A stretch of 64,000 nucleotides of DNA from NCBI GenBank assembly GCA_007121455.1, contig SKKN01000016.1:62001-126000 (forward strand), written 5' to 3'. Below the pieces are notes generated by a model. It saw only the letters and a list, made by a program, of their open reading frames with translations. It was not told the origin of the DNA and did not search any database. Each line of letters begins with the position of its first letter. Position 1 is the first letter of the stretch. This stretch comes from Gemmatimonadota bacterium (GTDB lineage: Bacteria > Gemmatimonadota > Gemmatimonadetes > Longimicrobiales > Gaopeijiaceae). The position numbers and the translations under genes are program-made. Positions 1,468-47,643 of this stretch are shown here, one piece after another.

Positions 1468-1489
1468 GGCGCCGGGACCCACCGCCCTC

Positions 1490-2278: not shown

Positions 2279-2335
2279 CGGTAACCCTCGGACGCGGATG
2301 GGCCTGATCCCCCGATTACGGTAGACCGTCGACAT

Positions 2336-2661
2336 CCGCCGGACAACCTTCTCGAGTGTCGTCCACCGGCCACTGAGTGTGGTCGGGAGCCGGGGTGATT
2401 ACACCCGCGGGCTTCACCTTCTGGATGCGCGCGATCGTAGTGCAGCTCGTCTCGACGGAGGCTTCCCCCAAGGTGCTGACCGCGTTCCGGACCGCGAGCG
2501 CGATCATGACCGGAGCCCTCCTCCTGCTCGCCGTGATCGTGCAGGGTTGGCCTTCGCATGCCGTCGTTCGGAGCTGAGGCACCATATTGTCATGAGTGGA
2601 ATTCCGTTATATATGCATGGCCCCCTCTTGATGCAGCTCGCGGTACAGAGGACATGACGAA
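2336..2661. other. Intergenic region with no convincing gene
   Basis: This stretch separates the decayed propeller gene (leftward) from the DUF5916 gene (rightward), so it should hold two promoters. I see a small inverted repeat, GGGTG-ATTA-CACCC, at 2393-2406. Short open frames exist on both strands (about 66 codons on +, 89 on -), but neither has a good ribosome site or a recognisable motif. Codon choice gives no support for either. The base composition around 2580-2640 is richer in A and T than the neighbourhood, as expected for a promoter. Confidence 0.4.
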
Positions 2662-5442: not shown

Positions 5443-5448
5443 CGTGGA

Positions 5449-6264: not shown

Positions 6265-6542
6265 TGATCTTCGGTTCTTCGGTGGGACGTGAATGCGGAG
6301 TCGATCGACGATGAGCGGACCAAGATAACGCGGTACGAATTCTGGGCCAGCGCTGGGACTCGGCCGAAGGTGTCCCGTGGCAAACTGCGCATCGTCGGGG
6401 CCGCTCGTGCGAAAATCTTGCGTGGCGAGAGGGCGGTGGGTAGGGTGGGAACAGGGAGGCTCACGTCCCCTGATCGCCGTTCCTCCGAGGCCGCCAGGGC
6501 CTTCTCCCACTGCTCCACACGACTCCAACCCTCGAGAGCCCC

Positions 6543-8624: not shown

Positions 8625-8651
8625 AGCCGAGACACGAGACCAGCGCCGTCT

Positions 8652-9662: not shown

Positions 9663-9702
9663 CGTCACTCTCCTCCAGTCGTGCAGCTGTTCAACCAGGC
9701 GT

Positions 9703-30867: not shown

Positions 30868-30947
30868 CTTCGGTCCGGGTTGGCATGGGTGTGTGAGGGC
30901 TTGAAGAGCGAAACGTGCACAGGCGATCTCCCAGAGGCAACCGACGG

Positions 30948-31649
30948 ATGAGCGAACGCATACTCGTGGTGGAAGACGAACCGGACATCTCCGCGCTCGT
31001 TGCTTATCACCTCGCACGTGAATCGTACCGGGTTCGCACGGCCTCCGACGGAGCGGAAGCCCTCGAAGCCGTGAAGCGCGAGCGGCCCGACCTCCTCGTT
31101 CTCGACCTGATGCTTCCGGGGATGTCCGGCCTCGACGTCCTGAGGGAGCTTCGAGGCCGTCCAGAGTACGAGAGCCTGCCTGTCATTCTCCTCACGGCGA
31201 GGAAGGAAGAGGGGGACCGGGTGGAAGGACTTCGCCTTGGAGCTGACGATTACGTGGCGAAGCCCTTCTCACCCCAGGAGCTTGTGCTCCGAGTGCAGGC
31301 TGTGCTCCGGCGTGTGCGCCAGCACCCGCCGAGTGGCGGCGGGGGAGCGCTGCTCCAGGTAGGGCCCGTGGTGATCGATACTGACGCGGCGCGGGTGGAG
31401 GTGGAAGGCCGAAGGCTCGATCTGACTCCGACCGAGCACCGCCTGCTGACGATCCTGCTCGAGCGGCGGGGACGGGTGCAGAGCCGGCGCCAGCTCCTCG
31501 AGGCGGTGTGGGATACGACGGCAAACATCACCACTCGCACAGTGGACATGCATGTCCAGCGGCTTCGCACCAAGCTCGGCGCCGCCGCGCCGTGGCTCGA
31601 GACCGTGCGTGGGTTCGGGTACCGGTTCCGCACCGAACCTCCCTCTTGA
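30948..31649 (+). CDS. phoB: PhoB-type response regulator (OmpR family)
   Basis: A 233-residue response regulator of the OmpR/PhoB class. The receiver has the acidic pocket VVEDEPD, phosphoacceptor Asp53 in LLVLDLMLPG, Thr in LLTARK and Lys105 in VAKPFSPQEL. The C-terminal winged helix shows LTPTEHRLLTILLERRGR, RQLLEAVWD and the recognition-helix region TRTVDMHVQRLRTKLG. The kinase gene follows 22 nt later in the same direction. The PhoB identity is inferred from the PhoR partner and the phosphate genes that follow; the sequence alone would fit several OmpR-type regulators. Confidence 0.88.
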   Translation: MSERILVVEDEPDISALVAYHLARESYRVRTASDGAEALEAVKRERPDLLVLDLMLPGMSGLDVLRELRGRPEYESLPVILLTARKEEGDRVEGLRLGADDYVAKPFSPQELVLRVQAVLRRVRQHPPSGGGGALLQVGPVVIDTDAARVEVEGRRLDLTPTEHRLLTILLERRGRVQSRRQLLEAVWDTTANITTRTVDMHVQRLRTKLGAAAPWLETVRGFGYRFRTEPPS

Positions 31650-31671
31650 ACAGGCTGAGCCTCTGACCCCG

Positions 31672-33408
31672 ATGCGGCTCCGTGCTCACCACAAGCTCTT
31701 TCTGAGCTACAGCCTGCTCGTTGCTGCCGTGGTCGTGGCTCTCACCGTCGGCGTCGACCGGAGCCTCCGGGCACCCCTTCTCGACCAGGCCCGCGACGAG
31801 CTCCTGAGGGAAATCGCCCTGGGCCGCGAAATCTACGATGGCTCTCCGGAGGTCCACCCGGATTCCCTCGCACGTCACCTCGGGAGCATCACAGGCCACC
31901 GCGTGACCGTGATCGAACCGACTGGGAGGGTGATCGGAGACTCCGGTGTGGAGCCGGATGAAGTCGCGGCCCTGGAGGACCATTTCGGTCGCCCGGAGGT
32001 GCGGAGCGCGCTGTCCGACGGTCGAGGGGTGTTCATTCGCGAAAGCGTTTCGGTCGGAACCGAGCTCCTATACGCGGCGGTGCTCACGGACCGGGGCGAC
32101 GTGCTCCGCTTCGCCGTGGGGATCGACGAGATCGAGGAGGCGGTCGCCGGGGTTCGCCGGCAGGTTCTGCAGGTCGGGGCGATCGCGCTCCTCCTCGGCG
32201 GGCTCTTCTCGCTCGGATTCAGCGCTGCCGTGACGGGACCCCTGCGACGAATCCAAAGCACCGCATCTGCGATGGCGGGGGGCGATTTGACCCGAAGGGT
32301 TCGGAGCTGGCGGAGAGACGAGCTGGGGGATCTCGGGGCGGCTCTCGATGCCCTCGCCGACGAGCTCCAGATCCGGCTGGGTCAACTCGAGGACGAGCGG
32401 GAGGAGATGCGGGCTCTGATCGACTCGATGTTGGAGGGGGTGCTTGCGGTGGATGACGAGGCGGTGATCGTCCGCGCGAACCCGGCGGCACGGAGGATGT
32501 TCGGTCTCGACAGGGAGTTTCGGAGCGCCCGGGTCGAAGAAGTCGCCCGCAGGACCGCGTTCGTGACCCTGGTCCGCCGAGCTGCTCGCGGTGAGGCTCT
32601 CCCACCCACCGAACTCACCCATGACGACAAGCATTTTCTGGTGACGGCAGCTCCTCTCCCGAGGGGAGGCGCCGTGCTCGTGTTTCTCGACACGACCGAG
32701 CTTCGGCGCCTGGAGGGCGTTCGAAGAGATTTCGTGGCGAACGTCTCCCATGAGTTGAAGACCCCGCTCACCGTGATTCGGGGGCACAGCGAGACATTGA
32801 CCGACGACGACCTCCCTCCTGAACTCCGGAAGAGGTTCTCCGAGACACTCCGGAAGAACGCGGATCGGTTGCACGAGATCCTGGACGATCTCCTGGACCT
32901 GTCGCGGATCGAATCCGGAGGCTGGGTGCCCGACCCCGCTCGGGTGCATATCGAGAGCGTGGCGCGCGAAGCGTGGCAGCCGTTCGGGGAATCCGCCGAG
33001 GAGCGCCGGATTGCGTTCGAGGTGCGGGTTCCGCCCGAGGCAGGGCAGGTGAAGGCCGACCCCCAGGCAGTGCATCAGGTACTCTCCAACCTCTTTGGCA
33101 ACGCGATCCGCTACACACCGGAAGGGGGGCGAATCGAAATCGTCGCTCGAAGAAAGGAGGACGGCTGGATCGAGGTGGAGGTGGGCGACACGGGGAGCGG
33201 GATTCCCGGTGCTCACCTCGACCGGGTCTTCGAGCGCTTCTACCGGGTGGATCCCGCGCGTTCCCGGGCCGAGGGTGGGACCGGGCTCGGCCTCTCCATC
33301 GTCCGGCACCTCGTGGAGCGGCACGGAGGCCAGGTGTGGGCGGAGAGCGAGCTCGAGCGGGGGACGAGGATCTTCTTCACCCTTCCGGGAATGGACCCCG
33401 GGCGGTAG
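31672..33408 (+). CDS. phoR: PhoR-type sensor histidine kinase
   Basis: A 578-residue inner-membrane kinase. Two transmembrane helices (about 9-27 and 165-187) enclose a periplasmic sensor of roughly 135 residues; then come HAMP (GPLRRIQSTASAMAGGDLTRR), a PAS domain (about 245-345, SMLEGVLAVDDEAVIVRANP), the H box with His360 in ANVSHELKTPLTVIRGH, and the ATPase with N box NLFGNAIRYTPEGG, DTGSGIP and GGTGLGLSI. The layout TM-sensor-TM-HAMP-PAS matches PhoR proteins outside the enterics. It would phosphorylate the regulator upstream and probably the second one downstream, which has no kinase of its own. Confidence 0.9.
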   Translation: MRLRAHHKLFLSYSLLVAAVVVALTVGVDRSLRAPLLDQARDELLREIALGREIYDGSPEVHPDSLARHLGSITGHRVTVIEPTGRVIGDSGVEPDEVAALEDHFGRPEVRSALSDGRGVFIRESVSVGTELLYAAVLTDRGDVLRFAVGIDEIEEAVAGVRRQVLQVGAIALLLGGLFSLGFSAAVTGPLRRIQSTASAMAGGDLTRRVRSWRRDELGDLGAALDALADELQIRLGQLEDEREEMRALIDSMLEGVLAVDDEAVIVRANPAARRMFGLDREFRSARVEEVARRTAFVTLVRRAARGEALPPTELTHDDKHFLVTAAPLPRGGAVLVFLDTTELRRLEGVRRDFVANVSHELKTPLTVIRGHSETLTDDDLPPELRKRFSETLRKNADRLHEILDDLLDLSRIESGGWVPDPARVHIESVAREAWQPFGESAEERRIAFEVRVPPEAGQVKADPQAVHQVLSNLFGNAIRYTPEGGRIEIVARRKEDGWIEVEVGDTGSGIPGAHLDRVFERFYRVDPARSRAEGGTGLGLSIVRHLVERHGGQVWAESELERGTRIFFTLPGMDPGR

Positions 33409-33473: not shown

Positions 33474-33489
33474 GTGACCTTCACGTTAC
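33474..33489 (+). promoter_or_regulatory. Candidate Pho box (GTGAC-N6-GTTAC)
   Basis: GTGAC at 33474 and GTTAC at 33485 start exactly 11 nt apart, the spacing of PhoB direct repeats. The site lies 47 nt before the start of the second PhoB-like regulator. Matching sites occur before pstS and between the TonB receptor and porin genes. Confidence 0.5.
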
Positions 33490-33535: not shown

Positions 33536-34288
33536 ATGACGATCGCCCCGCGGATTCTCGTGATCGAAGACGAAGCCGATATTGCCGCGCTCGTCGCGTA
33601 TCAACTCACGCGCGAAGGGTTCAGGGTGGAGACCGCGGCTGACGGCATCCAGGGCCTGCACGCCGTGCGCCGGGAGATTCCCGACCTCATCGTCCTCGAC
33701 CGAATGGTTCCAGAGCTCACGGGCGACGAGGTGCTCGCCATTCTTAGAGGGGAGCTGGCCACCCGGGGCATCCCGGTCCTCGTTCTGACGGCGAAGAGGG
33801 AGCAGGAGGACCGGATCGAGGGGCTCGAGCTCGGTGCGGACGACTACCTCACCAAGCCCTTCAGCCCGCGCGAGCTCGTCCTCCGGGTGCAGGCGCTTCT
33901 TCGGCGTATCGACCAGGGGTCCAGTGAGGCCGGCGGTAAACTGCTCCGCGTCGGTCCCCTCGCGATCGACCCGAGTTGTCACCTCGCCCTGATCGACGGT
34001 GAGGAGATGAGCCTCACGCCGACCGAGTTCAAGCTTCTGCAGACGTTGGTCGAGCGGGTGGGCCGGACGCAAAGTCGGCAGCAGCTCCTGGAGCGTGCAT
34101 GGGAACTGGACGCGGACGTCGCCGATCGGATCCAGACCCGTACCGTGGACATGCACGTTCGGCGCCTGCGAGCCAAGCTGGGTCGCTGCGGGGAGTGGCT
34201 CGAGACGGTCCGCGGATTCGGCTATCGGCTGCGGCTTCCGAAGGGGGAAGAAGATCGAATTCGCAGCCGCGGAACGGCGACCCCTTGA
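33536..34288 (+). CDS. Second PhoB-like response regulator (OmpR family)
   Basis: A 250-residue regulator very similar in layout to the one at 30948. It has Asp55 in LIVLDRMVPEL, Lys107 in LTKPFSPREL and a winged helix with LTPTEFKLLQTLVERVGR and TRTVDMHVRRLRAKLG. It follows the phoR gene by 127 nt and has no kinase next to it. A candidate Pho box precedes it, so it may be made only under phosphate starvation as an amplifier of the first regulator. Its C-terminal tail (about 20 residues, Lys/Glu/Arg-rich) is longer than usual. It lies just upstream of the pafA-like gene in the same direction. Confidence 0.85.
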   Translation: MTIAPRILVIEDEADIAALVAYQLTREGFRVETAADGIQGLHAVRREIPDLIVLDRMVPELTGDEVLAILRGELATRGIPVLVLTAKREQEDRIEGLELGADDYLTKPFSPRELVLRVQALLRRIDQGSSEAGGKLLRVGPLAIDPSCHLALIDGEEMSLTPTEFKLLQTLVERVGRTQSRQQLLERAWELDADVADRIQTRTVDMHVRRLRAKLGRCGEWLETVRGFGYRLRLPKGEEDRIRSRGTATP

Positions 34289-34349
34289 TCGGCAAGCGAT
34301 TGCGGTCGGAAAATTTCGAAGACACCCATACCCTTACGTTGAGAAAAAA

Positions 34350-36011
34350 ATGTTCGTTGAGAAGGTGGTCACGCGCGTCATGCCAACGGTCGTTTTCTTC
34401 ACTTTCGCGCTCGGAGGATGCGCGGAACCACCGGATAGTGAGGCGGCACCACCAGGTGTCCAGGTGCCCGAAGTGTCAGCCCCCATTCTTCCGAATGGGG
34501 GGCTCGTCGTCTACGTCGTCGTCGACCAGCTAAGGGCCGACCTCTTGGACCGGTACCAAGAGGTGTTCGTCGGCGGTCTGGCTCGCCTCCTGCAAGAAGG
34601 CCTCCGGTTTTCGAACGCCACCTTTGATCACGCGCAGACTTCCACATCGCCGGGACACGGTACGGCCGCGACAGGAACGCACCCCCACCGGCACGGACTC
34701 GTCGGCAACAATTGGGAGGAAAGGCTTCCGGATGGTTCGTGGGAATCAGTGTACGCCCTCCGCGACCTTTCCACGGAGATCGTTGGGTACCCCGAGATGG
34801 AGGGGCGCGGGCCGGCGAACCTCGACCGGCAAGGACTCCCGGACTGGATCATGGCAGCGGATCCGGGTGCTCGCGTAGTCTCCCTGTCGGGGAAGGACCG
34901 TGCCGCCATTGCGATGGCAGGGCACGTCCGGGGCGACGTCTACTGGCTCGACTCCGGGCTCGGGCGCTTTATCACCTCCACCTATTACCGCGACCAATAT
35001 CCCGACTGGCTGGAGGACTTCCACAACAGCGATATGCCGCGGCTCTGGGCCGACACGGTCTGGCACAGTGAGGTGCCGGTCGAGGCTGCACGCCTCTCTC
35101 GACCCGATACCTTCCCCTACGAGGGAGACGGGGTGAACACGTACTTCCCCCACCGGGCTTCCCGGGAGGCGGGAGGCGAGTCCGAGCACGACCTGAACGA
35201 GTGGAGAGGCCGTGGGCCCTACCCCGACCAGGCCACGATTGCGCTCGCAAAGGGGGCCGTCGAAGAGTTGGATCTGGGTCAGCGAGGCGTTCTCGACTAT
35301 CTCTCCGTAGCGCTGTCGCAGGTCGATCGTGTCGGGCACGACTACGGTCCCCTCTCTCGAGAACAGTTGGACAACCTGATCCGGCTGGACCGGGAACTCG
35401 GCTCCTTCCTCGACTTCCTCGACGCACAACTCGGCGAGGACGGGTGGGTTCTGGCCCTCACGGCGGACCATGGTGTGATGGATCTTCCCGAGGCGAGGGA
35501 GCAGGCCGGAGAGTACGGAAGGAGGATCTCACCGGACGAGAGGCGTGCGATGATCAGCCGAGCGGAAGCCGCGGCTGAAGCCGCCGGGGGCGATCCGCTG
35601 GAGCGGGCGAGAGCCGCCGCCCAGGCTGCACTCGAGTCCGATTGGGTGGAGGATGCATTTGCCTGGGAGGATCTCTCCGCCGGAGCTGAGCCCGACACGC
35701 TTCGGGCCCTCTTCGCGCACTCATATCATCCGGAGCGGGCGCTCCCCCCCCTCGGCCACCTCGGCGTGGCGCTCCGTACGGTGGAGGGAGCCTACTCAGG
35801 ACGTTACCCCACCGGCACTGGGCATGGCTCACCCTACTACTTCGATCGGCACGTACCCTTCATTCTTCGTGTTCCCGGCCTCTCCGCCGGAACGAATTTC
35901 GAACGCGTGTCGATCGTCGATCTCGCGCCGACCCTCGCCTCCCTCCTGGAAATTCCTTTTCCCGCCGACCTTGACGGGCGTCCCGTAGTGCGGGTGCACG
36001 GCCGAAATTGA
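34350..36011 (+). CDS. pafA: PafA-type alkaline phosphatase lipoprotein
   Basis: A 553-residue phosphate-monoesterase of the PafA (Thr-nucleophile) branch of the alkaline phosphatase superfamily. Key residues are visible: Asp59 in VVVDQLRAD, Thr99 in TSTSPGHG as nucleophile, Asn120 in LVGNNW, and the diagnostic Lys182/Arg184 pair in LSGKDRAAI; later zinc ligands lie in DRVGHDYGP, TADHGVMD and GTGHGSPYYF. The lipobox FALGGC (Cys24) implies anchoring in the envelope. PafA enzymes release phosphate from many sugar and nucleotide esters and are not inhibited by phosphate. The start ATG 34350 follows an A-rich tract 61 nt after the regulator, likely in one operon with it. Confidence 0.88.
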   Translation: MFVEKVVTRVMPTVVFFTFALGGCAEPPDSEAAPPGVQVPEVSAPILPNGGLVVYVVVDQLRADLLDRYQEVFVGGLARLLQEGLRFSNATFDHAQTSTSPGHGTAATGTHPHRHGLVGNNWEERLPDGSWESVYALRDLSTEIVGYPEMEGRGPANLDRQGLPDWIMAADPGARVVSLSGKDRAAIAMAGHVRGDVYWLDSGLGRFITSTYYRDQYPDWLEDFHNSDMPRLWADTVWHSEVPVEAARLSRPDTFPYEGDGVNTYFPHRASREAGGESEHDLNEWRGRGPYPDQATIALAKGAVEELDLGQRGVLDYLSVALSQVDRVGHDYGPLSREQLDNLIRLDRELGSFLDFLDAQLGEDGWVLALTADHGVMDLPEAREQAGEYGRRISPDERRAMISRAEAAAEAAGGDPLERARAAAQAALESDWVEDAFAWEDLSAGAEPDTLRALFAHSYHPERALPPLGHLGVALRTVEGAYSGRYPTGTGHGSPYYFDRHVPFILRVPGLSAGTNFERVSIVDLAPTLASLLEIPFPADLDGRPVVRVHGRN

Positions 36012-36158: not shown

Positions 36159-36619
36159 ATGTTTCGAATGATGAGCGGCGGTACGCCTCTGATGGTTACG
36201 GCGACCGCTCTCTTTGCTTTTCTCTCGCTTCTCCCCCTCGATGCCCGCGCGAACGATCTCGAGGGCGATCGTGAGGGGGGGGCGGGAATCCAGGAGGCCG
36301 GTATCGAGGGACGGGTAGTCTCATCCGAAGGAGATCCCCTGCGTGGCGCCGCAGTCACGATCCGCCACCAAACAACGGGTGAGGAGACACAGGTCTACAC
36401 GGGCGCGAACGGCCGGTTCAGCTTTTCGGGGCTGGAGGGAGAGGCGATCTACGATGTGCAGGCCGAAGCCCTCGGATACCGGTCGGAGATCGCTTCCGGG
36501 GTGTCTCCATCAACGTGAACAATCTCACGGACGCCTTTTATATCGACTCCGCAGTGCGATACGAGACCCGAGTCTCGGCGCCGCGGCACCTCCGGTTGAG
36601 CGTTGACTACGCGTTCTGA
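36159..36619 (+). pseudogene. Collapsed TonB-dependent receptor (both ends kept, middle lost)
   Basis: The frame from ATG 36159, behind GGGAGG, gives a signal peptide and a carboxypeptidase-regulatory domain (GIEGRVVSSEGDPLRGAAVTI, GANGRFSFSGL, YDVQAEALGYRSE). This is the N-terminal extension of SusC-like TonB receptors. It stops at 36516-36518. In the next frame, starting at about 36502, the sequence reads VSINVNNLTDAFYID followed by a strand pair and ends LRLSVDYAF with a stop at 36617-36619, which is the classic last segment of a TonB receptor. Plug and nearly all barrel strands are missing. A deletion of about 2 kb joined the ends out of frame. Confidence 0.75.
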
Positions 36620-36943: not shown

Positions 36944-37378
36944 ATGGCACCGATCCGGTCCCGGAGATTTCGTAAGCTCGGCGCGTTGGCGGCGGTGGTG
37001 GCCTTCGTGTCGGGCTGGGCCGTCGATGTGGGCGGGTTCTACGACTGCCCCCACCATGACCTGGCGTTCCTAGCCGGTGCCCATCATCACCACCCCAACG
37101 ATGACCACCGCCACGACCACGGTCCGGACGACGTCTCCTCTCTGACGGACGCCGAGTCCTCGCCACCGGCCTCCCACTCCGAGCACCACGACGGCCCCTG
37201 CACCTGTCGCACCGATTGCACCGGGGCCAATCCAGTGCGGGCGGCCGCTCCAACATCGGTGGAGCGCATTCCGGCACACACGCCCATTCGGATCTGGGCG
37301 GCCCGGCGGACGCTCGCCCCGGCCCACATTCACCTCCCCCATCTTCTGCCCTGGCCTACCGCTCCACCCCGCACCTGA
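36944..37378 (+). CDS. His-rich exported protein, probably metal-binding
   Basis: A 144-residue protein with an N-terminal hydrophobic helix (LGALAAVVAFVSGWAVDVGG) and then a His/Asp-rich region: CPHHDLAFLAGAHHHHPNDD, HRHDHGPDD and HSEHHDGPCTCRTDC. Such sequences bind copper, zinc or nickel. The C-terminal third is Pro/Ala-rich. No named family. It precedes a Met/His-rich barrel protein by 143 nt, and pairs like this occur in copper-resistance loci; the metal is an inference. The start ATG 36944 lacks a clear ribosome site. Confidence 0.6.
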   Translation: MAPIRSRRFRKLGALAAVVAFVSGWAVDVGGFYDCPHHDLAFLAGAHHHHPNDDHRHDHGPDDVSSLTDAESSPPASHSEHHDGPCTCRTDCTGANPVRAAAPTSVERIPAHTPIRIWAARRTLAPAHIHLPHLLPWPTAPPRT

Positions 37379-37521
37379 GGCATCCCGACTCCAGTCATCA
37401 CATTTCCTGCGTGGGGGCCATCGCCGCCCTCCTGCCGCCGGATCGCGGGATCCCGGTACGCGCAGTCGGGGCGGGAAGCGTTCTTGCGCGCATGCACCTC
37501 AGATGCGTGAAAGGTGAAACA

Positions 37522-38691
37522 ATGCACATTCCATACACTGAGTTCCGCCGTGGCTGCGACAGAACGGACATCCAATCCACGCGCCCGATCCGGGCCGGTA
37601 TCTCCAGCGTCCTCCGCCTCCTGGCGGCTTTCTCCCTCCTTGCCCTCCTCCTGATACCGGGCGAAGACCTGCCGGCACAGGAGCGCTGGAGCTCCGCCGG
37701 CCCCGCCGGCCACGCCCCGATCGGCGTCATGGGGGATCACACCCACAGCGCAGGAGAGTGGATGTTCTCGTACATGTTCAGCCGGGAGTCCATGTCCGGG
37801 CTCCGGGACGGCACCTCCGGCATTTCCATCGACGAGGCATGGCCCCATTACCGCATGCTTCCCTTGCACATGGAGATGGACATGCACATGCCCCACGTCA
37901 TGTACGCGCCTACCGACCGGGTCACCCTCATGGTCATGGGCATGTGGATGGACCACCGCATGGATGTCCGGATGGACGACGACCTCATGGCAGGCCACGG
38001 ACACGGACACGGTATGGTCCACAGCGAGTACGACGACGGTCATGGAACCGGCTTTCACAATATGGGGCACTCGGTTTCGGGGTGGGCCGATACGGAGGTG
38101 AGCGCCCTGATCACCCTCTACGAACACGACCGCCGGCGAAGCCACCTGAACCTGGGAGTGGGCATTCCCACCGGAACCGTCACCGCCCGGGACGACCGCC
38201 TGGTGGAGGAGCACCAACGCCTGGGCTACCCGATGCAGCTCGGCTCCGGAAGCTGGGAGGCCCGACCGGGCGCCACGTTCCTACTTCAGACCGCCCGGGT
38301 GTCATGGGGAGCCCAGAGCATGGGCACCTTTCGCGTCAATGAAAACAGCGAGGGGTGGCGCCGAGGCCACGAAGGAATGCTGAACGGTTGGGCAATGCTC
38401 CGGGGGAGCGAGTGGGTGAGCCCTGGGCTTCGCTTGCAGACCCGTCATTGGGGTGACGTCAGTGGAGCGGATCCGGCGCTGGATCCGGCCATCACCCCCG
38501 AAAACGACCCGGCCCTACAGGGCGGAAGCCGGGTGAGCGGCTGGCTCGCTGCCAACTTCCAGGTCCCCTCGGGACCGCTGGCTGGCCACCGGGTGGCACT
38601 GGAATGGGGAGGACCCCTGTTCGAATCCCTGAACGGGCCGCAGATCAGCTCGGACTGGACTTTCAACGTGGGGTGGGAATACAGCTTCTGA
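37522..38691 (+). CDS. Met/His-rich outer-membrane protein, copper-associated transporter-like
   Basis: A 389-residue exported protein (signal around residues 28-53, ending EDLPAQ). The first mature part reads HAPIGVMGDHTHSAGEWMFSY (a hallmark phrase of this family), then is dense in Met and His (MEMDMHMPHVMY, MVMGMWMDHRMDVRM, GHGHGHGMVHSE). The rest looks like barrel strands and ends WTFNVGWEYSF with a terminal Phe. Databases usually call such proteins transporter and place them in copper-resistance clusters. AGGTGA precedes ATG 37522. A strong hairpin terminator follows the stop. Confidence 0.75.
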   Translation: MHIPYTEFRRGCDRTDIQSTRPIRAGISSVLRLLAAFSLLALLLIPGEDLPAQERWSSAGPAGHAPIGVMGDHTHSAGEWMFSYMFSRESMSGLRDGTSGISIDEAWPHYRMLPLHMEMDMHMPHVMYAPTDRVTLMVMGMWMDHRMDVRMDDDLMAGHGHGHGMVHSEYDDGHGTGFHNMGHSVSGWADTEVSALITLYEHDRRRSHLNLGVGIPTGTVTARDDRLVEEHQRLGYPMQLGSGSWEARPGATFLLQTARVSWGAQSMGTFRVNENSEGWRRGHEGMLNGWAMLRGSEWVSPGLRLQTRHWGDVSGADPALDPAITPENDPALQGGSRVSGWLAANFQVPSGPLAGHRVALEWGGPLFESLNGPQISSDWTFNVGWEYSF

Positions 38692-38837: not shown

Positions 38838-41669
38838 TCAGAGCGCTAACCGGAGGCCCACGATGCCCCATGCGTGGTTGTAGGAGGACCGGAAGTGGAA
38901 CTCCGGCGTCCCGTCGTACCAGGTCTGAGGCTCGTTGGTGATGTTCTTGAGCTCCATGAATGCCGTGGCATTCTCCCTGACCCCCAGTTGTGCCGAGACA
39001 TCGAACTGGGTCTGCGACTCGAGGAATCGGTCCATGCTTGGAAATAGGTGGCTACGGTGCTCGCTCACCGCCTCCTGGCTGACCGCCCAGAGGTATTCGC
39101 TTCGGTGGTTCGCCGTGACCATCGTCGAGAACGGGCCGCGCTCCCATGAAAGGGCTGCGTTGACCACGTGGGGCACCTGCCTCGGCAGCGGGACTTCTCG
39201 TGTGACCTCTCGCAATTCGGCGTTCGAGTGGGTGTACGTATAGTTGGCGTACACACCGAGCCCGCTCAGCAAGCCGGGAAGGAAGGTGAGCCGCTGCTGC
39301 CACGCGACCTCGACCCCGTAGAGGTCGGCGCTCGCGCCATTCATCGTCTTCCGGACCTCGTACCCATCGAGTTCCCCGCCCTCGATGCGGTCGACGGACC
39401 CGAAGAAGAAGTCACTGAGCTGCTTGTAGAACACTCCGCCGGAGAGCAGCCCCAGGGGTTCGAAGTAGTGCTCGACGAGGAGGTCGACGTTCTGCACGAG
39501 GGACGGCTCGAGCTCCGGATTTCCCCGGGTGATCCGCTGGGAATCATGGTCCACGAACTCGTAGGGTGCCAGGTCCGTGAAGTTCGGCCGGGCGAGGGCG
39601 TTCGTCCACGCGAGACGGAAATTCGTCCGATCGGAGAGGCTGTATCGCAGGTGAGCCATGGGGAAGACGTTCAGGTAGTCGTTTCCCTCGTTCAGTCGCT
39701 CGACTCCCACGAAGCTGCCGCTTCCGTCGAAAATCGTCTGGTTCCCAGTGTACGAGGTCGAGGTTCGCTCCGTTCTCACTCCTCCGAGAACGGTCCATTC
39801 ACCCCAGCCCAGGGTCGTCATCACGTATCCGGCTGACACGGACTCCGATGCTTCGTAGTTCAGGGACGACGAAATCTCCTGGGTGTAATCGACGTCCTCT
39901 TCGAGGCGGTTGATGATCTCCTGAAGGAACGGTTCGCCCTTCGTCCAATCGACATGGTGGCCGATCCGGTACCGGCCGAGGATGGGGCGGTGCTCAGACC
40001 CGGAGGCGATACGGTCCATCACCCAACGATCGTCGCCCTGGGGGAAGTACCGTCGTACCCAGTAGTCCCGATCCTTCTCCTTCTGGAAGAACCGGCCTCC
40101 GAAGCGCAGAGTGCCCTGGGCGCCCATCGATTCGTAGGGAAGCTCGAAGTTGATGCGCGTGTTGAAATCCCGATCCTTCACATCATCCGTCCGGTTTTCA
40201 TGCCGGAGAAAGGGGATCTGGGTCGGGTCGAAAAAAGTACCGGGATTGTCGTTCGTGATTTCCCAATCAGCGCGGCGGGTGTTCGAGATGTCATAGGCAA
40301 GGTCGACACCCCCGACACGGTGGTTCAGGTACTGCTGGTATGGCTGATCGTGCCGACCATACCCGACCGAAGCGCTGAAGTCGGCCGTGAATGGGCCCAA
40401 TTCGGTTTCGCCACCCGCTCCGAACGAGGAGAGGATCTGTGTGATACGGTTTCGGCGGCCGATCGTCTCCAGGCGCCCGCCCTCGACCAGGTCCCGTCCA
40501 ATGTGGGTCCCGCTCTCCGGTCTGACCCGGAACTGGTGCCGGTCACCATGTTTGTCGAAGTGGTTGAACAGCGCGCGCACGAAGACCGAAGTGTGAGCGT
40601 CCACGTCGTAGTCGATGCGTCCGCTGAGGGCCAGCCGGTCGCGGTGGGTCTGGTAGGATCCGAGGCGGAGCTGGTCAAGGACGTCCTCCTCCCCATTCCC
40701 GAAGTCCTCGGTGCCCCAGAAGTGACGAATGTCGTCCATCATCATGTCGTTCCGGCGAAAGCTACCCCGAAGCAGAAAGCCGAGGTTTCCGACGCGCTCG
40801 CCGTAGATGACGCTTCCCTGGGCGTTCGGACCCAATCCGTGCTGGTGGTGCCCACCTCCAACCGAGACGTTGAGGATTCGGTCATCGCCGAGAGGCGTGC
40901 GGGTCACGAGGTTCACCGTGCCCCCTACCGCGTCCGCGTCCATGTCCGGCGTGATCGCCTTCGAAAGCTCCATCGAGGAGAGCATCTCTGCGGGCAGCCC
41001 CATGAGGGAGACCTCGCGGTCCGCAAGTCCCGTCGTGGGAAGCCGCTCCCCATCGAGCGTCACTGTGCTCATTCCTGGCGACATCCCGCGCACGAAAATG
41101 CTCTGAGGCTCCCCCCGGTGGTCGAAGCTTGCAACTCCCGGCAGTCGGCGGATTGCTTCGGCCGCCTGCGGATCCGGGAAACGTTCGATCTGGTCGGCCG
41201 AGATCACGTTCTGGATCGACACCGCGGTTCTCTGGCGGTTGAGTGCGTCGGCCTGACTCCCCCACCGGGTCCTCTCGACGGTCAGGGCTTCCAGATCAAG
41301 CGGGCGGATGGCCATGGTGAACTCGTGGCGAGCGAGCTCGGCCGGCGCCACTGAAACCGAGTTCGAAACCGATCTATAGCCGATGTACTCGGCTGTGATC
41401 TCATGCGTCCCGGCGGGAACGTTTCGGAGGCGAAACGTGCCGCGGGCCGTGGTGAGGGCACGGACGCCCAGGTCGCTGATCTCCACCCGCACGCCGGCGA
41501 GGGGACGGCCATCCTCCTCCGCGGTGATCTGTCCCTGGATCTCCCCGAGCTCCCCGGAAGTCTGCTGAGCTGTAAGTGGTCCGTGCGCGAGCAGTAATGG
41601 GATCATCGCGACCGTCCAAACGGCGGGCCGGATCCCACGGCTCGGCCTTCGCGGGCGCATTCGGAACAT
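38838..41669 (-). CDS. TonB-dependent receptor with carboxypeptidase-regulatory extension
   Basis: A 943-residue outer-membrane receptor. After the signal peptide (ending GPLTAQ near 35) comes a CarboxypepD_reg domain (GQITAEEDGRPLAGVRVEI, TFRLRNVPAGTHEI). The plug follows (SAEDQIERF-like as ISADQIERFPDPQAAEAIRR, GVASFDHRGE), and then a long barrel with NVDLLVEHYFEPLG and a C-terminal SYNHAWGIVGLRLAL. It imports a scarce ligand with energy from TonB-ExbBD. It is divergent from the phosphate-selective porin, and candidate Pho boxes lie in the shared promoter region, so the ligand is likely a phosphorus compound, for example a phosphate ester or phytate. That ligand assignment is inference. Confidence 0.9.
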   Translation of the reverse strand: MFRMRPRRPSRGIRPAVWTVAMIPLLLAHGPLTAQQTSGELGEIQGQITAEEDGRPLAGVRVEISDLGVRALTTARGTFRLRNVPAGTHEITAEYIGYRSVSNSVSVAPAELARHEFTMAIRPLDLEALTVERTRWGSQADALNRQRTAVSIQNVISADQIERFPDPQAAEAIRRLPGVASFDHRGEPQSIFVRGMSPGMSTVTLDGERLPTTGLADREVSLMGLPAEMLSSMELSKAITPDMDADAVGGTVNLVTRTPLGDDRILNVSVGGGHHQHGLGPNAQGSVIYGERVGNLGFLLRGSFRRNDMMMDDIRHFWGTEDFGNGEEDVLDQLRLGSYQTHRDRLALSGRIDYDVDAHTSVFVRALFNHFDKHGDRHQFRVRPESGTHIGRDLVEGGRLETIGRRNRITQILSSFGAGGETELGPFTADFSASVGYGRHDQPYQQYLNHRVGGVDLAYDISNTRRADWEITNDNPGTFFDPTQIPFLRHENRTDDVKDRDFNTRINFELPYESMGAQGTLRFGGRFFQKEKDRDYWVRRYFPQGDDRWVMDRIASGSEHRPILGRYRIGHHVDWTKGEPFLQEIINRLEEDVDYTQEISSSLNYEASESVSAGYVMTTLGWGEWTVLGGVRTERTSTSYTGNQTIFDGSGSFVGVERLNEGNDYLNVFPMAHLRYSLSDRTNFRLAWTNALARPNFTDLAPYEFVDHDSQRITRGNPELEPSLVQNVDLLVEHYFEPLGLLSGGVFYKQLSDFFFGSVDRIEGGELDGYEVRKTMNGASADLYGVEVAWQQRLTFLPGLLSGLGVYANYTYTHSNAELREVTREVPLPRQVPHVVNAALSWERGPFSTMVTANHRSEYLWAVSQEAVSEHRSHLFPSMDRFLESQTQFDVSAQLGVRENATAFMELKNITNEPQTWYDGTPEFHFRSSYNHAWGIVGLRLAL

Positions 41670-41758
41670 CGGTGTGTCCTCCTGGCAGCATGTTTTGGTC
41701 GAATCGCATCCTCATGAGGGAATGTCAGCGCCGAATTCCACGATCTCCTGAGATTCCG

Positions 41759-41774
41759 GTAACCACGGCGTAAC
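41759..41774 (-). promoter_or_regulatory. Candidate Pho box near the TonB receptor gene
   Basis: GTAAC at 41759 and at 41770, starting 11 nt apart; on the minus strand GTTAC-N6-GTTAC. It lies 90 nt before the TonB receptor start. Confidence 0.5.
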
Positions 41775-41885
41775 ACTGTTCGTGGTTTCTGGATCTGGGT
41801 CGCGAGTGCGTTGAACGGGGAACGGGGGAACGGCCGCGGAATCCGTACGCGCGACCACCCAGAAGGGAGTGGGGGCGTTGCGAGT

Positions 41886-41901
41886 GTAACGGACGCGTAA
41901 C
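41886..41901 (+). promoter_or_regulatory. Candidate Pho box near the porin gene
   Basis: GTAAC at 41886 and 41897, again 11 nt apart, 85 nt before the start of the porin O/P gene. GTNAC is its own reverse complement, so the orientation cannot be judged from the core. Confidence 0.5.
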
Positions 41902-41985
41902 CAAGTGTAGATTGGTCCGCGATCGGCCATCGGGCTGGCGCGAGTCGGGGCCTCTGCTCGGATGCACGAGACACAGGGAGTGAAG

Positions 41986-43065
41986 ATGAAGAAGGCTGGA
42001 GGGTTTCGACCATGGATCCGATGGATGCTCTGCGCGCCCATCCTCGCGCTACCGTCGGCAGCCGAGGGTCAGGTCCCGGAAGTCGCCTCGGTCCCCTTGG
42101 GCCTTTCGGCCCAAGAAACGGATCCTCCGGTCACTCTCCGGATCGGTGCACGGCTGCAGGTTCGCCATACCCAGGCGAGCGCGGCGGGGGGAGAGTGGAC
42201 TGGGAGCACGCGGATTCGGCGTGGGCGCCTCTCCGCATCCGGTGAGGCGTACCAGCGGCTCGACTACCTTGTCCAGCTCGAGCTCTCGGGTGCGCAGGCG
42301 CACCTGATCGACGCGGCCGTGCGCTATACGATCTCCCCAGAGGCCGTGCTCTGGTTCGGGCAGGGGAAGGCGCCGTTCGGGCGCCAGCAGCTCAATTCCT
42401 CGCGCGACCTCCACTTCGTGGATCGCACCCTCGTCGACAGCCGCTTCTCGGCCGGGCGGCAGCAAGGAGTGGCTCTGACCGGTCGTCTGGGTGGAACCCG
42501 TCTGGAGTATGGTGCGGGGATCTACGACGGAAACGGGATCAACCAACCGGACAACCCGAACGATCGGTTCATGACGGTGGCGCGCGTGGTACTCACGCCG
42601 CTCGGTGCCTACGGCCCCGTGGAGGGTGCGCACGATCGACCTGCTTCCCCACGCATCGCGGTCGGGGGCTCCGGGTTTCGGAACACGGTGGGGGAGGGGA
42701 GCCAGGAGACGAGGCTGACGCGCATCAATGGCGAAGGGGCTTTCAAGTTCGAGGGCTTGAACATGGTCGGCGAGTTTTACCGTGAGTGGACTTCCCCCGC
42801 GATCGGAAGCCGGACCGCGTCGAACGGGTGGTATTATCAGGCCGGATACCTCTTGCCGGAGGGTCGCCACGAAATCGCAGGGCGGTATGGGGAGATCAGA
42901 CCTCCAGCTCCGTCTCCCGGAGGCCAGGTGGAGACGGGGGTAGCCTACAGCTACTATATCGATCAGCACCGCGCGAAAGTTCAGGCCGACCTCCGCAACA
43001 TCCGGAGCCGGGCAACCGATACGGACCACCGGGAGCTCCGCATCCAGTTCCAGCTCACGATGTGA
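41986..43065 (+). CDS. Phosphate-selective porin O/P family protein
   Basis: A 359-residue outer-membrane porin of the OprO/OprP family, which passes phosphate or polyphosphate. The signal ends SAAEGQ. Family marks: LRIGARLQVRHTQ, STRIRRGRLSASGEAY, LDYLVQLELS, LWFGQGKAPFGRQQLNSSRD and RQQGVALTGRLGG. It ends LRIQFQLTM without the usual terminal Phe. GGGAG lies five bases before ATG 41986; an in-frame ATG at 41962 is less well placed. It is divergent from the TonB receptor and 112 nt before pstS, with candidate Pho boxes on both sides. Confidence 0.88.
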   Translation: MKKAGGFRPWIRWMLCAPILALPSAAEGQVPEVASVPLGLSAQETDPPVTLRIGARLQVRHTQASAAGGEWTGSTRIRRGRLSASGEAYQRLDYLVQLELSGAQAHLIDAAVRYTISPEAVLWFGQGKAPFGRQQLNSSRDLHFVDRTLVDSRFSAGRQQGVALTGRLGGTRLEYGAGIYDGNGINQPDNPNDRFMTVARVVLTPLGAYGPVEGAHDRPASPRIAVGGSGFRNTVGEGSQETRLTRINGEGAFKFEGLNMVGEFYREWTSPAIGSRTASNGWYYQAGYLLPEGRHEIAGRYGEIRPPAPSPGGQVETGVAYSYYIDQHRAKVQADLRNIRSRATDTDHRELRIQFQLTM

Positions 43066-43076
43066 CCGGCGGGACC

Positions 43077-43114
43077 GTTACCGTACGAAGCCGCGCTCGT
43101 TACATCCCTGTGAC
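43077..43114 (+). promoter_or_regulatory. Candidate extended Pho box upstream of pstS
   Basis: GTTAC at 43077, GTTAC at 43099 and GTGAC at 43110 begin 22 and 11 nt apart, so three of four positions in an 11-nt register are filled. The site starts 100 nt before the pstS start and begins 12 nt past the porin stop, so pst has its own promoter. Confidence 0.6.
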
Positions 43115-43176: not shown

Positions 43177-44286
43177 ATGATGACGAACATCGGTCGGGTC
43201 CTGAAGCTGCTTGCCGCCGCATCCCTGATTCCCATCGCTGTGATTGCGTTGGGGGGCTGTGCGGGGGACTCCGGTGGGGAGGGGCGAGGGAGCATCCTGA
43301 CGGGCGCAGGGGCAACGTTCGCGATGCCGCTGATCACCGTCTGGGGCAGTGAGTACGAGGCGGCCCGCGGTGAACGGGTGAACTACAATTCGATCGGGTC
43401 CGGAGGTGGGATCCGTGCCCATATCGATCAAACCGTGGACTTCGCGGCGTCCGAGGCGCCCCTTTCCGTCGAGCAGTTCGAGAGGGCGCCCGGCACGCTG
43501 ACGATCCCGTTCACGATCGGAACGGTGACGCTCGCGTACAACCTTCCTGGGGTGGAGCAGCTTCGTCTCACGGGGGACGTCCTCGCCGACATCTACCTCG
43601 AGCGGATCACCCGCTGGAACGACACGCGCCTCCGCGAGCTGAACCCCGGGGCGGATCTTCCCGATCGTAGGATCGTCGTCGTCCATCGTTCGGATGGCTC
43701 CGGGACGACGTACGTGATGACCGACTACCTGAGCAAGGTAAGCGAGGAGTGGGAAAGCCGGGTGGGGTTCGGCACGTCCGTCTCCTGGCCTGCGGGAATC
43801 GGCGGAAACGGGAACGAGGGAGTGGGTGGTGCAGTGCGGAACAACCCGTATTCGATCGGATACGTCGAGCTTTCCTACGCCGGCTCCCTCGGCATGCCGA
43901 CAGCGTACGTGCAGAACCGATCGGGGAACTTCGTCGCACCCTCGCTCGAAGGTGGAACGGCTGCAGCCGCGGCGGTAATGGACAGGCTCCCTGGGGGCCA
44001 CGAATCGTGGCACGAGGTGAGCTTCACGGATCCTCCGGGTGAGGACTCCTACCCACTCTCCTCCTTTTCGTACTTTTTCGTCTACGAGGACCTCGATCGG
44101 CCGGGCCGGCAGGTGAGTCGCCGGCGCGCGGAGGAGATCGTTCACTGGATCGAGTGGACCGTGACGGAGGGGCAGGCCTTCAACAACTCCGTGAGCAATG
44201 CGGCGATTCCGGAGAGCGTGCGCGAGCTGAACCTCGAAACGCTCGATCGCATCCGCTTCAACGGCGAGCCGGTGAGGAACTGGTGA
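43177..44286 (+). CDS. pstS: Phosphate ABC transporter substrate-binding lipoprotein PstS
   Basis: A 369-residue phosphate-binding protein. The lipobox is IALGGC near residue 28. Phosphate-contact segments typical of PstS are present: LTGAGATFAMPL at the mature start, NSIGSGGGIR, DFAASEAPLS, and VHRSDGSGTTYVMTDYL. The protein binds inorganic phosphate outside the inner membrane and passes it to PstCA. It starts with two ATGs; GGAG lies 12 nt upstream. The stop overlaps the pstC start by four bases (GTGA). Confidence 0.95.
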   Translation: MMTNIGRVLKLLAAASLIPIAVIALGGCAGDSGGEGRGSILTGAGATFAMPLITVWGSEYEAARGERVNYNSIGSGGGIRAHIDQTVDFAASEAPLSVEQFERAPGTLTIPFTIGTVTLAYNLPGVEQLRLTGDVLADIYLERITRWNDTRLRELNPGADLPDRRIVVVHRSDGSGTTYVMTDYLSKVSEEWESRVGFGTSVSWPAGIGGNGNEGVGGAVRNNPYSIGYVELSYAGSLGMPTAYVQNRSGNFVAPSLEGGTAAAAAVMDRLPGGHESWHEVSFTDPPGEDSYPLSSFSYFFVYEDLDRPGRQVSRRRAEEIVHWIEWTVTEGQAFNNSVSNAAIPESVRELNLETLDRIRFNGEPVRNW

Positions 44287-45311
44287 CCGGGGCGACTCCG
44301 GAGGCGGCCCGAACGACGAGTAGGGGTTCGGTAGGCGAGCCGGAGGTCACTTCAAAGGTCCTTTCACCGGGGTCGCCGCCCTCTCGTCGCTTCGACCTAG
44401 CACGCCACCTTGGGGAGCGCTGGTTTCGGTACGCCACCGGGGCGATGGCCTTGATCGTCGTCGGCCTCGTGCTCCTCGTGCTCCAGCAACTCTGGGTCGG
44501 CTCCCGGCTCGCCTGGAGCGAGTGGGGCCTGTCCTTCATCACCCGGACGGCGTGGAACCCCGTGACTGGGGAGTTCGGGGCACTCCCCTTCATCGTCGGT
44601 ACTCTCCTGACGAGCATGATGGCTCTTGCGATTGCGCTTCCGGTCAGTCTGGGCATCGCCATCCTGCTCACCGAATATGCGCCGCGCCTCCTCCGGGATC
44701 CCCTTATTTTCGTGGTCGAGCTCCTCGCGGCGGTGCCTTCGGTGGTCTATGGGCTCTGGGGGATCTTCGTGCTGGCTCCCCTGATGCAGCAGCGGCTGAT
44801 GCCGGCCATTGCCGCGACGCCACTCGGACGGCTTCCGGTCTTCGGCGAGCCAGGCACGGGCTACACCTTGTTCACCGCCAGCCTGATCCTCGCGATCATG
44901 ATCATCCCCATCATCGCCTCCCTGAGCAGGGAAGCGCTCATCTCCGTGCCGCGCGATCAGAAGGAGGCGGCTCTGGCTCTTGGAGCAACGCGGTGGGAGG
45001 CGACGCGGTTCGCCGTGCTTGCCTCCGCCCGCGCCGGCATCTTCAGCGCCGCCGTTCTCGGTCTCGGCCGGGCTCTAGGAGAGACGATGGCGACGACGAT
45101 GACGATCGGGAACCGAGTCAACCTCACCTTCGACTACTTCGAGTCGGGGTACTCCATGACCGCGATCATCACGAACGAGCTCCGAGAGGCTGCGAGCGAG
45201 ATCCATATTCACTCGCTCGTGGCGATCGGGCTGATCCTTTTTATTCTTTCCTTCGTCCTGAACACGATCGGGCGTCTCATCTTGATGCGCACCCGCATGA
45301 GGGGCGCATGA
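44283..45311 (+). CDS. pstC: Phosphate ABC transporter permease PstC
   Basis: A 342-residue inner-membrane permease with six transmembrane helices beginning near residue 57, after a polar N-terminal tail that is longer than in most PstC proteins. The permease loop is RDQKEAALALGATRWEATRF (the EAA motif), followed by GLGRALGETMA. GTG 44283 is the start, overlapping the pstS stop. It pairs with PstA to form the phosphate channel. Confidence 0.95.
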   Translation: MTGATPEAARTTSRGSVGEPEVTSKVLSPGSPPSRRFDLARHLGERWFRYATGAMALIVVGLVLLVLQQLWVGSRLAWSEWGLSFITRTAWNPVTGEFGALPFIVGTLLTSMMALAIALPVSLGIAILLTEYAPRLLRDPLIFVVELLAAVPSVVYGLWGIFVLAPLMQQRLMPAIAATPLGRLPVFGEPGTGYTLFTASLILAIMIIPIIASLSREALISVPRDQKEAALALGATRWEATRFAVLASARAGIFSAAVLGLGRALGETMATTMTIGNRVNLTFDYFESGYSMTAIITNELREAASEIHIHSLVAIGLILFILSFVLNTIGRLILMRTRMRGA

Positions 45312-46177
45312 CCGGCGTAGGAATGCCCCTGCGCCTTCGGGCACGGCTGTTTCGGGATGCGGTGTTGGTCGCGCTTTGTGTCGTGGCACTCGCCTGTGCC
45401 GTCGTTCCGCTGGTCTGGGTGCTCTGGGACGTGGTCGCCGTCGGCGTGGCGAATCTCTCCCTCGAGTTTCTGACCAGCCTTCCCGCGCCGCCCACGATCG
45501 GTGGCGGCGGCTGGGCGAACGCGATCGTCGGGTCCGTCGTGGTCGTGGGGCTCGCCGCGGCGATCGGTATTCCCGTCGGTGTGGGGACCGGAATCTACAT
45601 GAGCGAGTATGGGGCCAACCCGCTTGGACGGAGCGCCCGCTTCCTCTCCGAAGTGATGGCCGGCCTTCCGTCGATCGTCGCAGGTGTCGTCGCTTACGGA
45701 GTCATCGTCGTCACCATGGGCCAGTTCAGCGCACTCTCCGGCGGGATCGCGCTGAGCCTGCTCTTCATTCCGATCGTTGCAATCACGACGCAGGAAGCCC
45801 TCCAGATGATCCCAAAGGACCAGAGGGAGGCATCCTTCGCGCTCGGGGTGAGCGAAGCCCCCACCACGCTCCGCGTGATCCTCCCCGCCGCGATGGGGAA
45901 CGTGCTCACCGGGGTCATGATTGCTACGGCGAGGGTGGTCGGTGAAACGGCACCGCTCCTCTTTACGGTATTCAACAGCAGATACTGGATGGAGGGGCTC
46001 GACCGGCCGACGGCCACGATTCCCGTCAACATCTATTCCTACGCCATCAGTCCCTTCGAGCACTGGCATGAGCAGGCGTGGACCGGAGCCTTCGTCCTCG
46101 TCACGATGGTGCTCACGCTGAACGTTGCGGCGCGGACGCTCTGGGCGCGCCGTGCCCGTTTCATGGCGGGTCGTTGA
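45308..46177 (+). CDS. pstA: Phosphate ABC transporter permease PstA
   Basis: A 289-residue permease with about six transmembrane helices. Marks of PstA: GGWANAIVGS, IPVGVGTGIYMSEYG, the EAA loop in QMIPKDQREASFALGVSEA and ARVVGETAPLLFT. ATG 45308 overlaps the pstC stop (ATGA). It sits with PstC in the inner membrane and is driven by PstB. Confidence 0.95.
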   Translation: MTGVGMPLRLRARLFRDAVLVALCVVALACAVVPLVWVLWDVVAVGVANLSLEFLTSLPAPPTIGGGGWANAIVGSVVVVGLAAAIGIPVGVGTGIYMSEYGANPLGRSARFLSEVMAGLPSIVAGVVAYGVIVVTMGQFSALSGGIALSLLFIPIVAITTQEALQMIPKDQREASFALGVSEAPTTLRVILPAAMGNVLTGVMIATARVVGETAPLLFTVFNSRYWMEGLDRPTATIPVNIYSYAISPFEHWHEQAWTGAFVLVTMVLTLNVAARTLWARRARFMAGR

Positions 46178-46198
46178 TGGGTCACTCGGGAGGCAGCT

Positions 46199-46957
46199 GT
46201 GGCTGAAAGTATGAGAACCCGTGCCCTCAAAGTCTCATTCGGGAAGAACGAGGCAGTGAGAGGCGTCGACATGGACATTGAGCCCAGGAGCGTCACCGCG
46301 ATCATCGGGCCGAGCGGCTGCGGAAAGACCACGTTCCTTCGGGCGCTCAACCGAATGCACGACCACACCCCGGCCGCTCGCGTGAGCGGTAGCGTATTCC
46401 TGGGTGAAGAGGACATCTACGCGAACGGAATCAATCCGGTGGAGCTTCGCACCCGAGTGGGAATGGTCTTTCAGAGGCCGAACCCGTTCCCCACGATGAG
46501 CATCCGCGGCAACATCACCTTCGCCCCGAAACGGCACGGCCTCGCTCGGGGCCGCGAGCTCGACGAGTTGGTGGAGAGGGTGCTTCGTCAGGCTGCGCTC
46601 TGGGACGAGGTAAAGGACCGTCTCGACCACAGTGCGACGAGCCTGTCCGGGGGGCAGCAGCAGCGTCTCTGCATTGCGCGGGCTCTCGCGGTGCGCCCGG
46701 GGGTCCTGCTCATGGACGAGCCCGCGAGCGCGCTCGACCCCACGGCGACCCAGAAAATCGAAGAACTCATCTACGAGCTGAAGAAGGAGTACACGATCGT
46801 CATCGTGACCCACAACATGCAGCAGGCCGCCCGGGTCTCCGATTACACCGCGTTTTTCTACATCGGCGACCTCGTCGAGTTTGGGGAAACGGATGCGGTC
46901 TTTACCAATCCGAGGGAAGAACAGACCGAGGCCTATATCACGGGGAGATTCGGTTGA
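46199..46957 (+). CDS. pstB: Phosphate ABC transporter ATP-binding protein PstB
   Basis: A 252-residue ATPase. Walker [12 protein letters not shown]-loop in [11 protein letters not shown], signature LSGGQQQR, Walker [13 protein letters not shown] and H-loop VTHNMQQA are all intact. The Walker B tail has Ala where PstB usually has Thr (EPASAL rather than EPTSAL). GTG 46199 follows GGGAGG. It ends in a TTGA overlap with phoU. Confidence 0.95.
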
Positions 46958-47643
46958 GCGCGATGCGAGAGGCCCGGCACCTTCATGAAGAGCTCGGAGC
47001 GCTCCGGGCCCATCTGCTCCAAATGGGCGGCCTGGCGGAGGATCTGCTCCGAACGTCATTCGAGGCCCTCGTCGAACGGAGCGAAGCAAAAGCCGACTCC
47101 GTGATCCTCGGAGATCGGGAGCTGGACGCGATGGAAATGGAGATGGACGATGCGTGCATCAGCGTGCTTGCACTCCATCAGCCCGTCGCTCGCGACCTTC
47201 GCCTCATTACCATGGCCATGAGGATTTCGAACGACCTTGAGCGGGTGGGGGACCACGCGGTGAACATCGCCGAAACGGTGCAGCATTTCGACGTCGGCCT
47301 TCCATTGAATCGCTTTCCCCAGCTCGAGGAAATGGCCCGCATCACCCGCGAAATGCTCTCCGACTCCCTCGATGCGTTCGTTCGGAGAGACTCGGAGGCG
47401 GCGCGAGCGGTGTGCCGCCGGGACGACCGGGTCGATAACCTCCACGACTCTCTCTTTCGAATCCTGCTCACGCACATGATGGAAGACCCGCGGCGGATCG
47501 GCCCGGCGATGTCTCTCATTCTCGTGAGTCGAAACCTGGAGCGGGTGGCCGATCTCGCCACGAACGTGGGAGAGGACGTCGTATTTCTGGTGGAAGGCCA
47601 CAGCATCAAGCACGGTGCCGAGGGAGGGGGGAGTGTTCCTTGA
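46954..47643 (+). CDS. phoU: Phosphate signalling regulator PhoU
   Basis: A 229-residue all-helical protein with two PhoU repeats. Each has the metal-binding pattern: in the first, [27 protein letters not shown], shown here by its core [13 protein letters not shown]; in the second, [18 protein letters not shown]. PhoU links the Pst transporter to PhoR and keeps the regulon off when phosphate is plentiful. TTG 46954 overlaps the pstB stop and has GGGGAG upstream; ATG 46963 is an alternative. Last gene of the pst operon. Confidence 0.95.

Follow-up and report, generated by a model that had tools for sequence, protein, structure and literature searches.

In Caulobacter crescentus the PhoB regulon includes pst, a phytase and phosphatases as well as several TonB receptors, for which uptake of phosphate-containing compounds has been proposed (PMC11208175); in Flavobacterium, TonB-dependent transporters (TBDTs) and PusCD pairs are induced by phosphate depletion, one of them in a phytase locus (PMC8115612), and in Citromicrobium a TBDT lies beside a phytase (PMC3400609). 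A survey of the Gemmatimonadota names pst and PhoR-PhoB, and no Pho-linked receptor was found in its passages on phosphate and TonB (PMC10581226). Here we analyze a 64,000-nucleotide stretch of a Gemmatimonadota genome (contig SKKN01000016.1, positions 62,001 to 126,000; "the window" below), in which a TonB-dependent receptor gene and a putative phosphate-selective porin gene diverge from a gap that carries two Pho boxes. The receptor is quite probably a PhoB-controlled importer of an anionic organophosphate, which would be hydrolyzed in the periplasm by enzymes such as the neighboring PafA-like phosphatase.

Pho boxes before the receptor gene and its orthologues

The initial annotation had placed a 316-nt gap with two candidate Pho boxes between a leftward TonB receptor and a rightward OprO/P-type porin, and had noted pst genes and a PafA phosphatase nearby. 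All of this was confirmed (PstS by profile and PafA by similarity): the gap between the divergent genes runs from 41670 to 41985, and its boxes are two exact GTAAC-N6-GTAAC direct repeats with an 11-bp period. The receptor, the porin and the boxes are as follows:

38838..41669, minus strand: TonB-dependent receptor of the TIGR01782 type, 943 amino acids, with predicted barrel, plug and N-terminal CarboxypepD_reg domain
41759..41774, minus strand: proximal Pho box GTTACGCCGTGGTTAC, lying 105 bp upstream of the receptor start codon and carrying a third GT repeat at +33
41886..41901, minus strand: distal Pho box GTTACGCGTCCGTTAC, lying 232 bp upstream of the receptor start codon and 85 bp upstream of that of the porin
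41986..43065, plus strand: putative phosphate-selective porin of the Porin_O_P family, 359 amino acids (PF07396, 59 bits, gathering cut-off 20.9)
43099..43114, plus strand: Pho box GTTACATCCCTGTGAC, which precedes and faces pstS
33474..33489, plus strand: Pho box variant GTGACCTTCACGTTAC, which precedes phoB2

The two gap copies are the only exact GTAAC-N6-GTAAC motifs in the whole 3.53-Mb genome, and for the window, which has no exact box beyond them, a first-order Markov model gives an expectation of 0.0. The relaxed motif GTNAC-N6-GTNAC occurs 11 times in the 3.53 Mb, and four of the 11 lie in the cluster (one before phoB2, two in the gap and one before pstS).

Is this motif the Pho box of the family? 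The search for the exact motif covered 96 family genomes, and 58 of these were also searched for pstS. In the 58 genomes, 12 of 89 exact boxes lie at most 400 bp upstream of one of 50 pst-type matches (expectation 0.009), and 11 of these boxes are oriented toward the gene; further boxes in the family precede phoB2, Porin_O_P genes and a porin-pst operon. The 11-bp phase is maintained in the box arrays (GTGAC at -22 before pstS, GT at +33 in the receptor boxes), and direct repeats phased by 11 bp are the geometry of PhoB sites in other bacteria. By these sequence comparisons GTAAC-N6-GTAAC is the Pho box of this Gemmatimonadota family. In two family genomes (L200 and L203, from G100 and G101) a Pho box is followed by an HMGL-like gene and then by phoB2-phoR, and the HMGL-like gene diverges from another TonB receptor gene.

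Orthologues of the receptor occur in Gemmatimonadota genomes at 72-78% identity, and more distant ones at 38-54%; the genomes of the former appear, judged from isolate names, to be of soda-lake origin. One check suggested earlier was to look for the same receptor beside Pho genes in relatives. Most orthologues are not so placed, but the box is kept: 9 of 10 orthologues (38-100% identical) are preceded by a box that matches in at least 9 of its 10 bases and faces the receptor in every case (p ~0.01 or less each). Because the box is the family's Pho box and is kept before orthologues that lie away from pho genes, PhoB control of the receptor is well supported at the sequence level, and the earlier proposal that the receptor is phosphate-regulated now has strong backing. 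A TIGR01782 scan of eight genomes, made blind to the box, also found that most receptors of family f1 with available upstream sequence carry one (L182 and L221 denote one gene, with an exact box a short way beyond the stretch scanned). Some contexts had been chosen because a receptor was already seen there, so the box-before-receptor counts of that batch are biased. Before the phytase-linked receptors of other families the box matches are weak and mostly non-significant singly, and nearly all of the best matches face the gene.

A second receptor clade (L217, L219 and L221) has the order Pho box, receptor, fn3-type lipoprotein of 519-561 amino acids and small gene, with phoB next in the row in L217 and L219. 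The lipoprotein, putatively exposed at the surface, is reminiscent of Caulobacter CC0171 and of ElpS, a phosphate-starvation lipoprotein (PMC2996285).

What does the receptor import?

The receptor scores 460.7 bits against TIGR01782 (curated cut-off 310) and has the Pfam domains Plug, TonB_dep_Rec_b-barrel and CarboxypepD_reg; its AlphaFold model has a predicted local distance difference test (pLDDT) score of 85.9 and matches the TonB-dependent receptor (TBDR) fold in a fold search. With 20.7 bits on the SusC/RagA model (cut-off 368) it is below the threshold for a SusC-type receptor, and no SusD-type partner is found at the gene, which is flanked by the porin and orf37216 (no Pfam match). The protein is acidic overall, and ExbB-type genes are present in the genome.

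Several possible guides to the ligand were tried and rejected. There is no near relative of the receptor among solved structures, the only sequence match being the plug region of Cir (E 1e-6), and the fold search led to general TBDRs. Paralogues in the same genome match only in short N-terminal stretches at ~26-35% identity, and, apart from the porin in G395, no phosphorus gene recurs among the neighbors of the close orthologues.

The neighborhoods of more distant relatives are more telling. In other Gemmatimonadota families 18 of 30 homologues lie next to a gene from one and the same cluster, which proved to be a PF02333 phytase in four of five tested. Outside the phylum, the closest relatives on annotated plasmids belong to Bacteroidota and Proteobacteria, and 12 of 19 such relatives have a phosphoesterase-type gene immediately downstream (counting phytase, histidine phosphatase, metallophosphoesterase, acid or alkaline phosphatase and phosphatidylinositol-specific phospholipase C); a beta-propeller protein stands at two more of the 19. 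As a control, relatives of a SusC-type receptor of the same genome adjoin SusD in 8/8 cases and a phosphoesterase in 0/8. In trees the receptor clade (support 100) nests among phosphoesterase-linked receptors at nodes with support of 81-96, and the invariant positions specific to the clade comprise 16 Lys/Arg versus 7 Asp/Glu. The initial annotation had seen clustering with siderophore or sugar receptors as the outcome that would speak against a phosphorus ligand; this was followed up in part, and the receptor has no near relative of solved structure and groups with phosphoesterase-linked receptors, in a tree that was built without the characterized TIGR01782 sugar receptors (MalA, NagA and SuxA).

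Because this receptor lineage is encoded with phytases or other phosphoesterases in several phyla, the ligand class is most likely an anionic organophosphate, for example an inositol phosphate, a phosphorylated sugar or similar, and the earlier suggestion of a phosphorus-containing ligand is supported by the neighborhoods in other lineages and by the tree. Flavobacterium PafA acts on phosphomonoesters (PMC8812569), so a sugar phosphate or inositol phosphate is a plausible ligand. A local phytase as the receptor's partner was rejected: the enzyme partner of the relatives is missing here, because neither beta-propeller phytase (PF02333) nor histidine-acid phosphatase (PF00328) is found in the genome, and PF02333 phytase occurs in only 1 of 92 family genomes. 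These comparisons indicate that the clade gained conserved arginines and lost the linked phytase.

Two arrangements in other genomes may be recorded here. In L087 (G177), positions 24-9691, a receptor homologue is lined up with genes for a sugar-type periplasmic binding protein, an ATP-binding cassette permease and a PafA-like phosphatase; such a set would suit the import of the sugar or inositol once dephosphorylated. On a Paraburkholderia plasmid (L246, 4965-10765) a single row of genes comprises a relative of the receptor, dedicated ExbB, ExbD and TonB genes and a gene for a beta-propeller protein.

Which genes do the two boxes serve?

The boxes had been described as shared between receptor and porin. 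Two boxes do lie in the gap, but sharing is less clear: both read toward the receptor, and the third repeat of the receptor type (+33) is present in the proximal box and missing from the distal one, so that one box for each gene is equally possible. The distal box may serve the porin, because reversed boxes also lie 100-130 bp before four other Porin_O_P genes and a -10-like TAGATT follows the distal box by six nt in the porin direction (the porin ATG is at 41986, with GGAG six nt upstream of it). Several of the other porins with a reversed box are accompanied by a second, closer box that is missing from the window porin, and this weakens the idea. One box per gene would be the most economical model. 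Could both boxes serve the receptor only, with the porin outside the regulon or read from elsewhere? Their common orientation, the confinement of the +33 repeat to the proximal box and the missing nearer box at the window porin all favor this, and we nevertheless think it rather unlikely in view of the reversed boxes of the other porins, the TAGATT, and the porin of G320, which heads the pst operon behind a box.

Proposed mechanism and alternative explanations

Read directly from the sequences are the identity, conservation and position of the boxes, the family of the receptor, the neighborhoods of its relatives and the ExbB-type genes. On this basis we propose that the gap is a divergent Pho control region that would work as follows: On phosphate starvation, phosphorylated PhoB would bind the 11-bp direct repeats (GTTAC-N6-GTTAC) and turn on the leftward receptor gene from the proximal box (105 bp from its ATG) and probably the rightward Porin_O_P gene from the distal box (85 bp from its ATG), while pstS and phoB2 would each be under a box of their own. 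The receptor would carry an anionic organophosphate over the outer membrane with TonB energy, a periplasmic phosphatase of the PafA type would free phosphate from it, and Pst would take this phosphate in; free phosphate would enter through the porin.

Several observations weigh against this reading. The nearest orthologue (L076) has no clear box, no phosphatase adjoins the receptor in the close orthologues, and the porin arrangement is kept in one other genus only. The absence of both phytase types from the genome also counts here, as does the moderate support (84-86) of the deep tree nodes. Lastly, the excess of basic residues among the conserved inward-facing positions is modest (26 Lys/Arg versus 18 Asp/Glu), with inward faces assigned by alignment parity and not from coordinates.

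Might the repeats instead be the site of another OmpR-family regulator, with an indirect link to phosphate? Direct repeats serve several OmpR-family proteins and the cluster has two PhoB-like regulators, but identical sites precede pstS, phoB and phosphate porins across the family, which makes this highly improbable. A different possibility is that the receptor is indeed induced by phosphate starvation and imports iron, zinc or another metal, either for enzymes such as PafA or as metal freed from phosphate minerals. Siderophore, heme and citrate receptors rank first in the fold search, the receptor gene adjoins a pair of genes for His- and Met-rich proteins (36944-38691), and a Pho cluster downstream of xoxF3 has been noted in a Gemmatimonadota genome (PMC10875860). 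The fold matches reflect the general TBDR fold at 11-15% identity, however, the gene pair is convergent with the receptor and not conserved beside it, and the sequence relatives adjoin phosphoesterases and not siderophore genes; we consider a metal or metallophore receptor unlikely.

A narrower form of the organophosphate reading is that the receptor is specific for phytate or lower inositol phosphates and that another phosphatase acts in place of the lost phytase. Phytase is the commonest linked enzyme in the Gemmatimonadota and Sphingomonas relatives, and the conserved arginines suit a polyanion. Such specificity is possible, but we are inclined to doubt it, as this genome lacks phytase and so do all but one of the 92 family genomes, and the several other phosphoesterases beside relatives indicate that the lineage is not confined to phytate. 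Anionic organophosphates as a class are thus our preferred ligands. More broadly, and tentatively, a large part of the TIGR01782 receptors could be an organophosphate-import lineage spanning Gemmatimonadota, Bacteroidota and Proteobacteria, in which soda-lake Gemmatimonadota might have evolved a stand-alone, arginine-enriched importer driven by a Pho box, with no linked esterase and here paired with a phosphate porin.

Genes surrounding the receptor and porin

The remaining genes of the cluster are:

30915..31649, plus strand: phoB1, PhoB-type response regulator (profile matches)
31552..33408, plus strand: PhoR-type histidine kinase (open reading frame as listed; the true start is probably inside it)
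33536..34288, plus strand: phoB2, second PhoB-type response regulator (profile matches)
34347..36011, plus strand: PafA-like alkaline phosphatase of the Phosphodiest family, with a putative lipoprotein signal (NF042991, 306 bits, cut-off 650)
43177..47643, plus strand: pstS, pstC, pstA, pstB and phoU (PstS by profile TIGR00975, 329 bits)

PafA, PhoB and PhoR fall under the NCBIfam equivalog cut-offs and are named by similarity; pstC, pstA, pstB and phoU are named from the order of the open reading frames and from BLAST matches in relatives. Besides phoB-phoR, genomes across the family retain a second PhoB-like regulator, which has a Pho box to itself and frequently lies next to pafA (33536-34288 here; L209, L210, L211, L223 and L224). 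An open reading frame of 119 amino acids at 36159-36518 has a CarboxypepD_reg domain only and resembles the N-terminus of a TonB receptor, of which it is possibly a remnant. The convergent pair at 36944-38691 encodes a small His-rich protein and a Met/His-rich protein of 491 amino acids with no Pfam match, and is possibly metal-related.

Comparison with known systems

The initial annotation held that a TonB route for organophosphates is little described outside a few proteobacteria; Pho-controlled TonB receptors are not so confined, as several Flavobacterium receptors are induced by phosphate depletion (PMC8115612). In the open-access papers searched we found no description of this family's Pho box or of the stand-alone receptor, and among the five papers that mention TIGR01782 none concerns phosphorus by its title or abstract. 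A Pho box defined by sequence for a Gemmatimonadota family would make phosphorus regulons readable from uncultured genomes, and organophosphate import is a functional lead for a receptor subfamily that is widespread and has few known ligands. A further question that can now be put to the test is whether TonB-driven uptake brings organic phosphorus compounds into the periplasm intact, ahead of their hydrolysis.

The Caulobacter system is alike in having TonB receptors in the PhoB regulon alongside pst and phosphatases (PMC11208175). It belongs to another phylum, whereas here a single receptor diverges from a phosphate porin in a genome that lacks phytase, and the two are likened by regulation and not by receptor lineage. 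Flavobacterium shares phosphate-controlled outer-membrane importers and a PafA in the organism, but its PusCD are SusCD pairs with a lipoprotein cap, in contrast to a TIGR01782-type receptor with no SusD partner, and Flavobacterium PafA is constitutive. By sequence, the phytase-linked TBDTs of Sphingomonas plasmids belong to this receptor's lineage (~28% along most of the length), and they are likewise phosphorus-related; they differ in that no phytase is linked here and the Pho box would drive the receptor alone. The Citromicrobium TBDT (PMC3400609) is likened by description, not by sequence. The divergent gene is in the same Pfam family (PF07396) as the OprO/OprP-type phosphate porins, a family-level match that leaves its phosphate selectivity putative. 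With Pho-controlled receptors already reported in Caulobacter and Flavobacterium, the finding adds to an existing kind, to which this receptor lineage and its DNA switch appear to be new.

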